Source: Candidatus Fermentibacterota bacterium (lineage in GTDB: Bacteria; JAFGKV01). Taken from it: DNA of 24,644 bases. Of this stretch, positions 3,563-22,091 are shown in pieces (position 1 is the first letter of the stretch; every line of letters begins with the position of its first letter). The notes below the pieces were generated by a model. The model was not told where the DNA came from. It searched no databases and saw only the letters and a program-made list of their open reading frames with translations. The stretch spans positions 1 to 24,644 of the forward strand of contig JAUXFG010000046.1 of the NCBI GenBank assembly GCA_030620115.1, written 5' to 3'. The translations under genes and the position numbers were made by a program.

Positions 3563-3662
3563 AGATTCTTCGGTCGCTTCGCTCCCTCAGAATGACACGC
3601 GGTGCCACCTACTTCCGCACACTACCACTGTCATTCTGAGCGACTCCAAGGAGCGAAGGATC
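3563..3662. repeat. Inverted pair of CATTCTGAG-type intergenic repeats
   Basis: Two roughly 34-bp arms, 3563-3597 and 3629-3662, are imperfect inverted copies ending in TGTCATTCTGAG. Arms of the type CATTCTGAGCGAAGCGAAG are, as I recall, scattered between genes in many unrelated bacterial genomes. The pair sits after the gpmI stop and before the Memo operon and could fold as a transcript-end hairpin on either strand. Confidence 0.55.
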
Positions 3663-3709
3663 TCTCTGAATCCTTCCTCCGTCATCTGAACCATGAACCT
3701 CCGAACCCA

Positions 3710-5572
3710 TCACCCCATCCCACAGATCAAACTCTCATCATAATCCTCTGGTTTCTCATACCCCAACAGGTTCAGTACTGTTGCAGCAACATTGGACAGA
3801 CCCGCGCCCTCCACCTGTCGCAGGGCGTATCCGGGATTCTCGCGCTCATCAGCCATCAAAAACAGTACAGGGTTCAAGGTATGGCTGGTCAAGGGAAGCG
3901 GCTCTCCCGCGGCATTCCGCATAAATCTCCCCTTCTTGTCCTTTTGGAACATCTCGTCAGCATTCCCATGGTCAGCCGTAATAATCAGAACGCCTTCCGC
4001 CTTCCGTATCTCGTTCCATACCCTGCGCACACATAGATCAACCGCTTCCACGGCAAGGATGGCGGCATCTAGAATCCCGGTGTGACCCACCATGTCTCCA
4101 TTGGCATAATTGACTCGTATGAATGGATAGGAACCCCCCCGAATACCACGGATGACTTCATCGGTCACCTCGGCCGCCTTCATCCAGGGCCGCTGCTCAA
4201 ACGGCACCCGGTCCGAAGGGATTTCCACATAGGTCTCAAGATTCTCGTCGAACTTCCCGCTTCGATTGCCGTTCCAGAAATAGGTGATATGCCCAAATTT
4301 CTGGGTCTCCGCAATAGCAAGCTGACGAACACCTGCGCCAACAAGGTACTGGGTCATCGTTCGGTCGATTGCCGGCGGAGAAACCAGGTACTGCTTGGGA
4401 ATATGAAGATCACCGTCATACTCCATCATCCCGGCATACAGGACATCCGGCCTCCGCCCGCGAGGGAATTTGTCGAATGTCGCTTCTTCAAATGCCCTGC
4501 TGATCTCAATGGCACGATCGCCTCGGAAATTGAAGAAGAGCACCGCATCGCCATCCACGATCTGCCCCACGGGCTTCCCCCCTTCGGTGACCACGAATGG
4601 GGGGAGGAACTGGTCACTGATGCCGGGTTCTTCCACTCGATAGGTCTCAATGGCAGCCTCGGCTGTGTCGAAGGCTCTTCCTTCTCCACGCACATGAGCC
4701 TTCCAGCCACGCGCAACGATGCGCCAATCCGCCTCATACCTATCCATGGTGGTGACCATGCGGCCGCCTCCGCTGGCTATCCGGTAGTCTGCGTTCCCCT
4801 CCGAGCTGAGTGATCTCAGCTTCTTCTCCAGTGAGCGCACATACTGCAATGCACTGGTCTCAGGCACATCTCGCCCATCTAAGAGGATATGCAGTCTGAC
4901 CCTGGCAATACCCTCCTCGTGCGCTCGATCCAGAAGCGCAATGATATGGTCCATATGGCTGTGCACATTTCCGTCTGAGAGCAAGCCTATGAGGTGAAAC
5001 GTCCCGCCGGCGAGACATCGGGCAACAATCCCTTTCCATACGGACGATTGCCACGCAGTGCCTGAATTCAGCGCCATATTGACGAGCTTGGCTCCCTGGT
5101 CAAAGACTCTGCCTGCCCCCAATGCATTATGCCCCACTTCCGAGTTGCCCATGTCCTTCTCTTTCGGCAGCCCCACGGCTTTTCCATGGGCACGGAGTCT
5201 GATATGTGGAAAACGTGAAATCAGGCCATCAAGTGTTCCGGTACGTGCGAGATGCACGGCATTTCCCTCGTCAGGTGTGCCGAGACCAACCCCGTCCATG
5301 ACCACAAGTACCAACGGACCGGCAGGCCGTCTCAATCCGGCTAGCCCGGACTTCTCACCAGCCTTCGTCGCGAAACGGTTGAGATGGTATTGCCTGCAAG
5401 GCCTGCGACCAAAGTCGGTCGAAAGCGTATCCTCTGCGATACGCCGAGGCCGGTCGACCGAGCGTAACGAAGCAGGGAGTGCCAGATCAATCGTTGCAGT
5501 CCCGCGGCCGACGCGGGATTGGTGAGAAGTTCGGGTTATAGCGGAAAGCTTCAGTGCCTCTGTCGTCGCCAT
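3710..5572 (-). CDS. gpmI: 2,3-bisphosphoglycerate-independent phosphoglycerate mutase with in-frame repeat insertion
   Basis: Interconverts 3- and 2-phosphoglycerate in glycolysis, in the cytoplasm. It is 620 residues; the family is usually about 510-550. Hallmarks are VVMDGVGLG (metal Asp93), DMGNSEVGHNALGAG (catalytic Ser144), ITADHGNADEM and the SHT motif near the C-terminus. Residues 13-77 are translated from a terminal-inverted-repeat element at 5342-5538. Removing the element plus one TA deletes exactly 195 bases (65 codons) and restores MATTEALKLSAI-AGLRRPAGPLVLVV, a 555-residue enzyme of normal length. The start is ATG at 5572, four bases after the stop of the waaF-like gene with GGGAGGG upstream, so it is the last gene of the surface-glycan operon. 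No strong in-frame start with a ribosome site lies downstream of the insertion, so the insert is probably translated; a weak TTG near 5339 cannot be excluded. Confidence 0.93.
   Translation of the reverse strand: MATTEALKLSAITRTSHQSRVGRGTATIDLALPASLRSVDRPRRIAEDTLSTDFGRRPCRQYHLNRFATKAGEKSGLAGLRRPAGPLVLVVMDGVGLGTPDEGNAVHLARTGTLDGLISRFPHIRLRAHGKAVGLPKEKDMGNSEVGHNALGAGRVFDQGAKLVNMALNSGTAWQSSVWKGIVARCLAGGTFHLIGLLSDGNVHSHMDHIIALLDRAHEEGIARVRLHILLDGRDVPETSALQYVRSLEKKLRSLSSEGNADYRIASGGGRMVTTMDRYEADWRIVARGWKAHVRGEGRAFDTAEAAIETYRVEEPGISDQFLPPFVVTEGGKPVGQIVDGDAVLFFNFRGDRAIEISRAFEEATFDKFPRGRRPDVLYAGMMEYDGDLHIPKQYLVSPPAIDRTMTQYLVGAGVRQLAIAETQKFGHITYFWNGNRSGKFDENLETYVEIPSDRVPFEQRPWMKAAEVTDEVIRGIRGGSYPFIRVNYANGDMVGHTGILDAAILAVEAVDLCVRRVWNEIRKAEGVLIITADHGNADEMFQKDKKGRFMRNAAGEPLPLTSHTLNPVLFLMADERENPGYALRQVEGAGLSNVAATVLNLLGYEKPEDYDESLICGMG
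5342..5538 (+). mobile_element. TIR element copy A (full, 197 bp) inside gpmI
   Basis: The left end TA-GCCCGGACTTCTCACCA and the right end TGGTGAGAAGTTCGGGT-TA are inverted repeats flanked by TA. An internal hairpin GCGTATC/GATACGC sits in the middle. The element proper (5344-5536) is 193 bases, and with one duplicated TA the net gain is 195 bases, a multiple of three. It stays open in the gpmI frame. It shares its left end and internal blocks (CTGCAAGGC, GCGTAACG, GAAGCAGG, GTTGCAG) with copies D, F and G. Confidence 0.85.
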
Positions 5573-5576
5573 CTTT

Positions 5577-6557
5577 TCAGGTTCCCTCCCTCACACATGC
5601 CTCCAGCACATGCTCCACAGTAATCTCCTTCAGGCAATTGGTATGCCCCAGGGGGCAACGCCTCTCAAGACAAGGGCTGCAGGAAAGACCCTTGTATATG
5701 ACGCACACCCGGGAACCCAAGGGGCGGGTCCACGCAGGATTGGTTGAGCCGAAAATGACGACCACCCGTGCACCGGCCTAGGCTGCCACGTGTGCGACTC
5801 CTGAATCATTGCCCACAAAAAGCGCACACCGCCGCAGCATAGACAAGAGCTCAGGCAGGGTCGTCTCCCCGGCAAGATTCACCACGTCGGACCTCGCCGC
5901 GGCAGCAATCTGAGCCAGCAATGGACGTTCAGGAGCCCCCCCCACAAGAGCGACCCGAAGCGAGAAGCGACGCACCAATTCTCGAGCCAAGGCAGCAAAG
6001 GAATCCGCGGGCCATTGCTTCGCAGGGCCATAGCGCGCTCCCGGAGCAAGGACAACCGTGTTGTCGATATTCTCTTGCACTGCCGCGGGAATCTCTCCAG
6101 CCACATGATCCATGGCGGGTAGCTCCATGGCGCCCTCAAGGCCAAGAGCGGCGGCGAGGTTGAGATACTCCCGAGCCATGTGCCGAGCCTTCACACGCCC
6201 CTGAACCAATCTGTTATACGCCCATTCCCCCTCCCGACCTTTTCGCCCAACCCGGATGCGGGCTCTGGACACTGCCACCATGGCGGCCGCCCTCGAGCTT
6301 CTTGGGAATGACACGGCCACGTCCGGTCTGAAATGCCAAAGCCATCGCATCATGCGCCAAGTGTCCTGGAGGCCTTTTCCTGTGGTCACCACGAGCTCAC
6401 CATCGCCTAGCGAAGCGAGATCAACAAGGCCTGGGCGCACTATGACACAAAACGGCGCGGGCAGCCCAGCTCGCATGATCTTCAGAGCGGGAAGCGCCAT
6501 CACCAAATCGCCAAGCCAGTTCGGCGCAATGATAATCGTACCGCCAGATCCAGCCAC
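5577..6557 (-). pseudogene. waaF: WaaF-like GT9 glycosyltransferase with in-frame TAG
   Basis: ADP-heptose:LPS heptosyltransferase family (GT9), which adds heptose to the LPS inner core at the cytoplasmic face of the inner membrane. The start is GTG at 6557, with GGGAG about eight bases upstream, just after the flippase stop. Hallmarks are IIIAPNWLGDLVMALPALK at the N-terminus, VVLAPGARYGPAKQWP in the middle and GNDSGVAHVAA near residue 250. A TAG at 5778-5780 interrupts the frame right after VAA. The same frame continues AGARVVVIFGSTNPAWTRP and then the typical waaF tail CSPC...CPLGHTNCLKEI to the TGA at 5577, giving about 326 residues if read through. The whole family length is intact apart from this one codon. 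It may be a recent nonsense mutation, readthrough or an assembly error. The heptose substrate is inferred from similarity. Confidence 0.82.
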
Positions 6558-15220: not shown

Positions 15221-15292
15221 TAACCCGGACTTCTTACCAGCTTTGGAAGCGAAGCGGTCCCACGGCGGACGCGGGATGAGAAGTGCCGGTTA
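15221..15292 (+). repeat. TIR element copy C (short form, 72 bp)
   Basis: The left end TA-ACCCGGACTTCTTACCAGC and the right end ATGAGAAGTGCCGGT-TA are inverted and TA-flanked, but only about 35 bases of interior remain, so it is an internally deleted copy. It sits between the promoter at 15148-15176 and the AGGAGG site of the TrmO-like gene. Confidence 0.7.
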
Positions 15293-18272: not shown

Positions 18273-18440
18273 TAGCCCGGACTTCTCGCCAGCCTTCGTC
18301 GCGAAACGGCTGAGATGGTATTGCCTGCAAGACCTGCGGCCAAGGCCGGTCGAAGGCGTATCCTCTTTCCGCCAGCTGGCGGAAAGCAGGGAGTTCCGGA
18401 TCAGTCGTTGTAGAAGACGGTTGGTGTGAAGTCCGGGCCA
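18273..18440 (+). mobile_element. TIR element copy D (full, 168 bp)
   Basis: The left end is TA-GCCCGGACTTCTCGCCAGC and the right end TTGGTGTGAAGTCCGGGC-CA (the flanking TA has drifted to CA). The interior matches copy A over the first 85 bases. In place of the central GATACG hairpin it has a perfect 20-bp palindrome, TTTCCGCCAGCTGGCGGAAA (18366-18385). Several frames remain open through it, producing spurious ORFs. Confidence 0.82.
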
Positions 18441-20800: not shown

Positions 20801-21217
20801 TATGGCCCGTACTTCTCCCCGGCTTTCGTCGCGAAGCGGTGTAGTTCGCTGTGGCTGCAAGGCTTGCGACTGAGGACCCCGGCTCTGCCAGGGCGTAGCC
20901 CGGACTTCTCACCGGCTTTCGAAGCGAAACGGTTGAGATGCTTCTGAACGCGAGGCTTGCGACCAAGCACCCCGCAGGCGTATCCTCTGCGATACGTCGA
21001 GGAGGCCGACGGAGCCTAACGAAGCAGGCAACGCCATATCGGCGGTTGCAGCCGAGAGTTGGTGAGAAGTCCGGGGTAGCCTGGCTCCGCCGTGGAGAAG
21101 CCCGGAGGCGTATCCCCTGTCCGCCAGCTGGCGGATCGAGGAGTCCGAAGGAGCGTAACGCAGCAGGCAGGGCCAAATGCGACGTTGCGGCAGATGGCTG
21201 GTGAGAAATGCGGGCTA
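20801..21217 (+). mobile_element. TIR element copy F (outer, interrupted by copy G)
   Basis: The left part, 20801-20895, starts near TATGGCCCGTACTTCTCC and runs through GCTTGCGACTGAGGACCCC. The right part, 21079-21217, contains GGCGTATCCCC, the TCCGCCAGCTGGCGGA palindrome (21120-21135), AGCGTAACGCAGCAGGCAGG and ends CTGGTGAGAAATGCGGGC-TA. Together they make one element of about 236 bases split by copy G. More diverged ends than the inner copy fit an older insertion. Confidence 0.65.
20896..21078 (+). mobile_element. TIR element copy G (full, 183 bp, nested in F)
   Basis: Clean ends TA-GCCCGGACTTCTCACCGGC and GTTGGTGAGAAGTCCGGGG-TA, with TA on both sides. The interior has the GCGTATCCTCTGCGATACG hairpin and the AACGAAGCAGGCAACGCC block shared with copy A. 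Confidence 0.78.
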
Positions 21218-21272
21218 TGTATCCCGGAATCCGCAATCCAAAATCCGAAATTCACGATTCTCGATTGAAGAT

Positions 21273-21929
21273 TCACGCCCGCCTGATCTCAACGATCTTC
21301 GTCTCGTTGCTGAGATCGAAGTACGCATACTTTCCACCCCGCACCGGGCCCGGGTTCACAATCTTCGTCTCGCCGATCGTGTCAATGCCCGTTGCCTCAT
21401 GAATATGGGCAGTCAGACAGGCCACGGGTTGATGCTCTTCAATGAACGCGCGAATAGCCTTGCTTCCCACGTGCAACCCACCGTGCAGCATATCATTGAC
21501 CGTATCCCTCGGAGGCTGATGAGCGACGAGAATCATGGGCACTCCTTCAGGTACTCCTGCGGCCGCCTCGTTCAGCCATCGCCGGAACTCCGCTTCGGAA
21601 GATTCATTGGGTGTCGTTCCGGGACACGGAAGTGATCCGCTGATTCCGACAAACGCGTACCCGCCTGCGAGGACACAACGGCGATGCAGGCTCAGACCGG
21701 CACGAATGAGATAGTCCTCAACGCCAGGATAATCACAGTTCCCTGATACGGCCAGGATTCGTTCGCACGTTGTCTTCGCCGTGTCAACAACGCGCGCCGC
21801 CTCATTTTCGCCGCCGAAATGGGTCAAATCCCCAGCAAACACGACCAGATCGACGTGATCGATCCCCCCAAGCGTTCGAGATACGGATGAAGCATCTCCG
21901 TGAACATCCGATAGTCCGACCACAACCAT
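21273..21929 (-). CDS. Metallophosphoesterase (YfcE/calcineurin-like)
   Basis: 218 residues. Metal-binding motifs are in family order: SDVHGD (Asp8, His10), AGDLTHFG (Asp34), SGNCD (Asn64), VAHQPP and TAHIHE, then IVNPGPVRGGKYA, typical of small cytosolic phosphodiesterases. The third motif is GNCD instead of GNHE, as in many YfcE-like proteins. ATG 21929 has GGAGGG six bases upstream; a longer reading from GTG 21959 is less likely. The substrate (phosphodiester or nucleotide) cannot be told. It stands alone between element cluster F/G and element H. Short AATCCGNA-type repeats follow its stop at 21227-21260. Confidence 0.87.
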   Translation of the reverse strand: MVVVGLSDVHGDASSVSRTLGGIDHVDLVVFAGDLTHFGGENEAARVVDTAKTTCERILAVSGNCDYPGVEDYLIRAGLSLHRRCVLAGGYAFVGISGSLPCPGTTPNESSEAEFRRWLNEAAAGVPEGVPMILVAHQPPRDTVNDMLHGGLHVGSKAIRAFIEEHQPVACLTAHIHEATGIDTIGETKIVNPGPVRGGKYAYFDLSNETKIVEIRRA

Positions 21930-21966
21930 TGCAGCCCTCCAGTCATATTTCATCCACACCGATCGA

Positions 21967-22091
21967 GCCCGGCTCCCTCAGCCTCCTCGACGTATCGCAG
22001 AGGATACGCCTGCGGGGTCTTCAGTCGCAAGCCTCGCATTCAGAACCATCTCGGCGGCTTCGCTTCGAAAGCCGGTGAGAAGTCCGGGCTA
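21967..22091 (-). repeat. TIR element copy H (one end plus middle)
   Basis: On the minus strand it starts at TA-GCCCGGACTTCTCACCGGC (22091 downward) and runs through GCGAGGCTTGCGAC and the GCGTATCCTCTGCGATACG hairpin, closely matching the left half of copy G, then stops near 21967 with no opposite end. It lies in the gap between the metallophosphoesterase start and the phospholipase-like stop. Confidence 0.75.

Follow-up and report, generated by a model that had tools for sequence, protein, structure and literature searches.

Results and discussion

An in-frame element in the phosphoglycerate mutase gene

The window analyzed here is the whole stretch of 24,644 nucleotides from a Candidatus Fermentibacterota bacterium (contig JAUXFG010000046.1, positions 1 to 24,644 of the forward strand). 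On its minus strand, at positions 3710–5572, it carries gpmI, whose product of 620 amino acids, insert included, was matched by both Pfam and NCBIfam to 2,3-bisphosphoglycerate-independent phosphoglycerate mutase, in agreement with the glycolytic enzyme named in the original prediction. Within gpmI lies a 197-bp element with TA at both ends, hereafter copy A (5342–5538). Its canonical terminal inverted repeat (TIR), TAGCCCGGACTTCTCACC, occupies positions 5342–5359 on the plus strand, and the other end, TAACCCGAACTTCTCACC, is found with one mismatch at 5521–5538 on the minus strand; the copy is thus bounded by TAGCCCGGACTTCTCACC...GGTGAGAAGTTCGGGTTA, and the ends of the element are denoted TANCCCGGACTTCTCACC. 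A short internal palindrome (ATCCCGCGTCGGCCGCGGGAC, minus strand, 5500–5520; recognized by alignment, with its coordinates read off the sequence) belongs to a length difference of 12 nt (4 codons) that distinguishes some copies from others.

In the gpmI open reading frame the element covers about residues 12–77 of 620. Its net insertion amounts to 195 nt, or 65 codons, through which the gpmI frame runs without a stop. After removal of copy A together with one TA (195 nt), the recomputed sequence encoded 555 residues followed by a stop, with the join ...KLSAIAGLRRPAGPLVL, also given as KLSAIAGLRRPAG. The coordinates, ends and frame of the element, its net length and the size of the restored enzyme were therefore all as predicted. 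Homologues from three other genomes, G001 from the same family (66% identical), G019 (61%) and G047 (58%), all lack the 65 residues, which answers the alignment check proposed with the original prediction. The site is located in the poorly conserved N-terminal tail of GpmI, ahead of the first strand of the domain, and the TIGR01307 match (E=1.2e-125) has its best stretch past the insert, from residue 86. Because the insert falls into this tail, gpmI is weaker proof of an internal insertion than the truA and GT39-like genes described below. AlphaFold, run on GpmI as a single sequence, returned a pLDDT of 36, too low to be informative.

The gpmI ATG lies 4 nt past the TGA of the preceding glycosyltransferase-9 frame and is accompanied by a GGAGG-like stretch; in G001, the stop of the preceding gene overlaps the GTG start of gpmI. 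In addition, the N-terminal tail of the G001 enzyme (VNSHIHLSSWAGPPRPDGPVVLV) resembles the element-free tail of the enzyme studied here (MATTEALKLSAIAGLRRPAGPLVLV). Based on the position after the preceding stop, as in G001, and on the likeness of the tails, the upstream ATG is probably the inherited start. Translation would then proceed from this ATG through copy A, and we infer that GpmI retains its activity with the insert. A less likely reading, which concerns gpmI only and was named with the original prediction as an outcome that would refute it, is that initiation has moved to a TTG two codons past the element, so that an insert-free enzyme is made and the open frame is incidental. This TTG codon indeed occurs in LRRPAG right behind the insert, the GpmI domain matches begin only after it, and the N-terminal tails of the G019 and G047 homologues are short. 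However, the placement of the upstream ATG, which has a GGAGG-like stretch, is much like the stop/start overlap of G001, the tail ahead of the insert resembles that of G001, and the frame is intact across the element. A downstream start would also leave truA and the GT39-like gene unexplained, where the sequence beyond the insert needs an upstream start. We thus regard downstream initiation in gpmI as unlikely, although it is the strongest of the alternatives considered, and favor the upstream ATG.

The glycosyltransferase-9 gene upstream of gpmI (5577–5780, minus strand) contains an in-frame TAG (AHVAA*AGARVVV) at a position where the G001 relative encodes W; past this codon, the frame stays open until the TGA ahead of gpmI. 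The TAG may possibly represent a premature stop, a site of readthrough or an assembly error.

A high-copy repeat family with TA ends

When copy A was searched against the DNA of its own genome (4.1 Mb, 296 contigs), 51 matches were obtained, and the 18-base end pattern was found 633 times with up to three mismatches, compared to 10 times for a reversed control pattern. Copy A is therefore not a chance structure. With two ends counted per copy, these numbers suggest a family of about 300 copies, which is only an estimate and is limited by the many ends that occur without a close partner in the stretches read. In two genomes of the same family the end repeat was absent at up to one mismatch; the element family is lineage-specific.

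Copies were studied in selected stretches of the genome, and 66 unique copies were used for the end statistics. They are 51–239 bp long, have TIRs of at least 18 bp and are too short for a transposase. TA was present at the first end of 57/66 and at the second end of 50/66 copies, the base before the element was C or T in 54/66, and the base after it was A or G in 57/66. This pattern indicates a TA target duplication within a YTAR site, consistent with the homologue-like length that element-free gpmI reaches upon removal of one TA. The sites in gpmI, truA and the GT39-like gene are filled in this genome and empty in its relatives. TA duplication is the hallmark of IS630/Tc1-mariner elements, and IS630 itself is described as preferring CTAG (PMC2170065 and its reference list). 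As the copies combine TIRs and small size with a high copy number and no transposase coding capacity, the features by which MITEs are recognized, the family is best read as a non-autonomous TIR element (MITE) with TA target duplication that appears IS630/Tc1-mariner-like. This likeness is confined to target choice, and we do not file the family as a member of the group, because neither a partner insertion sequence with matching terminal repeats nor an IS630-type transposase was found: the PF13358 model of IS630-type transposases was unmatched in the genome (a draft assembly, which could lack the gene), and at the PF01609 (DDE_Tnp_1) loci the end repeat was not present as a flanking pair. Viral contigs, searched with the exact 26-base end, and plasmids gave no element match.

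Internal insertions in truA and a GT39-like gene

In truA (contig C160, locus L142), a related copy occupies residues 225–286 of a 331-residue open reading frame, between GGRS and APCAPPQGLSF. The insert was missing from 11/11 homologues examined, and removal of the element extended the TIGR00071 match from 3–211 to 3–224 (profile length 228). The second case is a membrane-glycosyltransferase-like gene on contig C266. In G001 and G002, the orthologues align both before and beyond the insertion, with 57–58% identity over residues 2–282 and 42–49% over residues 349–503/505, so that they lack nothing but the element. No family model matched this protein, which we term GT39-like by judgement. With conserved sequence on both flanks, the alignments make truA and the GT39-like gene the stronger proof of internal insertion. 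This recurrence also bears out the predicted resemblance to the Rickettsia palindromic elements (RPEs) as far as behavior is concerned, and the prediction's caution that the sequence family looked different and was not known as described holds as well.

The remaining in-gene copies are candidates; codon-usage scoring of empty sites was too weak for a genome-wide census of such copies. A signal-peptide-like stretch precedes the insert in a BNR-repeat protein (L140) and in a small protein, L128, whose insert belongs to another subfamily with a net length of 180 nt. The inserts in a transglutaminase-like protein (L006) and a GT2 protein (L007) are N-terminal, and these cases are ambiguous. In an RND efflux periplasmic adaptor (L126, 1761–3035), the last approximately 65 residues are element-coded and form the C-terminal end of the protein.

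Length, frame and subfamilies

All six candidate in-gene copies of the copy A subfamily use the same element strand and frame, and their net lengths of 183, 195 or 204 nt are multiples of three. Across the subfamily this frame is open in 18/19 copies; the remaining copy is also the only one with a net length not divisible by three. In contrast, no internal insertion was found among 16 copies of a sister subfamily (183 bp), whose net length of 181 nt would shift the frame of the host gene. Depending on the number of N-terminal cases accepted, the comparison of 3, 4 or 6/19 in-gene copies with 0/16 gives p = 0.15, 0.07 or 0.02 (Fisher's test), and the numbers are small. The peptide encoded by the element is basic and hydrophilic (pI 10.4–11.7), which suits an exposed loop, and it may be disordered.

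On the tree of copies, intergenic ones included, no stop-creating change was found in the coding frame (3.9 expected), and internal length changes were nearly all multiples of three (9 or 12 nt). One could speculate that evolution has made the subfamily translatable, as a mobile element adapted to life inside genes. If so, the fitness of this selfish element would depend on its coding for a harmless peptide. We consider this doubtful at present. Another frame of the same strand was also depleted (1 stop-creating change vs 6.3 expected) and the copies share ancestry, so that the avoidance of stops is only suggestive. The substitutions in in-gene copies showed no third-position excess and thus no signal of protein-level selection in their codon-position bias.

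Probable translation of the insert

Given established insertions that relatives lack and that leave the frames intact, we consider it very likely that a high-copy MITE family with TA duplication is present, and that copies of its in-frame subfamily are translated inside host proteins. Enzymes including GpmI would then probably carry about 61–65 extra amino acids. Mobilization may depend on an IS630/Tc1-mariner-type transposase. As the net length of the copy A subfamily (183, 195 or 204 nt) is divisible by three and one fixed frame is free of stops, a host protein could still be made after a copy has inserted into its gene, provided that orientation and phase match and the site is tolerant. The protein would gain a basic, hydrophilic segment of 61–68 residues, and the translatable subfamily could in this way survive inside proteins.

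Apart from the downstream start in gpmI, the open frames could be chance in GC-rich DNA if the host genes were decaying pseudogenes. The in-frame TAG in the gene upstream of gpmI would fit such decay, and random substitutions fairly often leave the element frame open. However, truA and gpmI are otherwise complete and retain conserved motifs, searches revealed no further homologues (no second truA was detected in the genome), and the GT39-like protein is 42–58% identical to its orthologues on either side of the insert. Decay thus seems very improbable. Somewhat more remote still is removal of the element after transcription or its skipping in translation, by self-splicing or ribosome bypassing, in which case no insert would be made. 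The element RNA does fold more strongly than shuffled sequences (z = −3.85), but strong folding is expected for the palindromic DNA of any MITE, and splicing or bypassing needs neither a length divisible by three nor a stop-free frame, both of which were found in six of six candidate in-gene copies. An Rfam search of the window gave no match and hence no known self-splicing intron. Finally, an ancestral origin of the 65 residues, as protein sequence that relatives then lost, can practically be dismissed, since the sequence recurs both in unrelated genes and outside of genes and the relatives of each host protein lack it.

Relation to known elements

In-frame fusions of bacterial MITEs, above all of the Rickettsia RPEs, have been described by Delihas (PMC2229807) and in a 2024 review (PMC10969869), which considers in-frame invasion in prokaryotes beyond Rickettsia conceivable. 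The translated MITE family proposed here appears to work like the RPEs, which are likewise small palindromic TIR repeats found in frame in unrelated conserved protein genes as well as outside genes, and which contribute a similar peptide at each insertion (PMC10969869, PMC2229807). The likeness is one of behavior, and we do not claim membership in the RPEs. RPEs are smaller (105–146 bp, compared to 183–204 nt net), only some of them have the TA at both ends that most copies show here, and their host is Rickettsia, whereas the family studied here resides in the 4.1-Mb genome of an uncultured bacterium from a sparsely sampled phylum. For the RPEs, production and activity have moreover been demonstrated for one host protein, guanylate kinase (PMC2229807).

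By description, the family also resembles the Neisseria Correia/NEMIS elements in its TA ends, inverted repeats and two size classes (PMC2229807). Their open-frame class occurs inside genes and the class without open frames is almost only intergenic (PMC2229807). They differ in host and in size classes (107 and 155 bp), and the classes found here are distinguished by length modulo 3, not by stops. RUP of Streptococcus pneumoniae is likewise a MITE that targets TA and has been ascribed to an IS630 transposase (PMC2229807), but it is closed in all six frames and intergenic, unlike the translatable subfamily of this genome, in which no IS630-type transposase was found. ERIC/IRU elements also end in TA and have an open frame that is joined in frame to certain genes (PMC2229807); they are enterobacterial and 127 bp long, with a 7-bp contiguous inverted repeat.

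Small palindromic elements that invade proteins in frame are documented above all in Rickettsia. The insertions described here offer an independent case: the host is an unrelated uncultured bacterium, its genome is larger, and the homologues of two enzymes provide clean empty sites. The insertions form a natural set that records which sites in proteins accommodate some 60 additional residues, and the contrast between in-frame and out-of-frame subfamilies makes filtering by selection testable.

Further copies and related repeats

A related copy in the window (18273–18440), 93% identical over its first 94 bases, is not in an identified gene, and a copy of the 183-bp sister subfamily (net 181 nt) at 20896–21078 also lies outside identified genes. 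A short 72-bp derivative of the family is found at 15221–15292. The 20896–21016 arm has an inverted partner at 21971–22091 on the minus strand (121 nt, 90% complementary), and the inverted copies in 20896–22091 flank a gene weakly matching YfcE-type phosphodiesterases (21276–21959, minus strand) in a composite-unit-like arrangement. Sixteen occurrences of the 16-bp palindrome TCCGCCAGCTGGCGGA were counted across 296 kb (L145–L164 and the window), and it is also present inside some element copies (L002, L003), apparently as an exchangeable hairpin module. Directly after gpmI, at 3563–3663, lies the inverted repeat AGATTCTTCGGTCGCTTCGCTCCCTCAGAATGACA of a separate repeat family.

Among GTDB release 220 contigs, the exact 26-base end occurred in one further genome, the Planctomycetota MAG OFTM49 (G060), which contains 87 end matches of the family. 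Typical copies in this genome (including L088) are 179–180 bp long, and their interior looks different. Insertions into genes are not claimed for this genome: although open frames run across several elements, those inspected are mostly antisense or low-complexity, and in one inspected case the recognizable protein was located downstream. In G001, a related-looking end, TANCCCGGATATTTCAYS, was found about 10 times (e.g., L089–L096), nine of them in one orientation.
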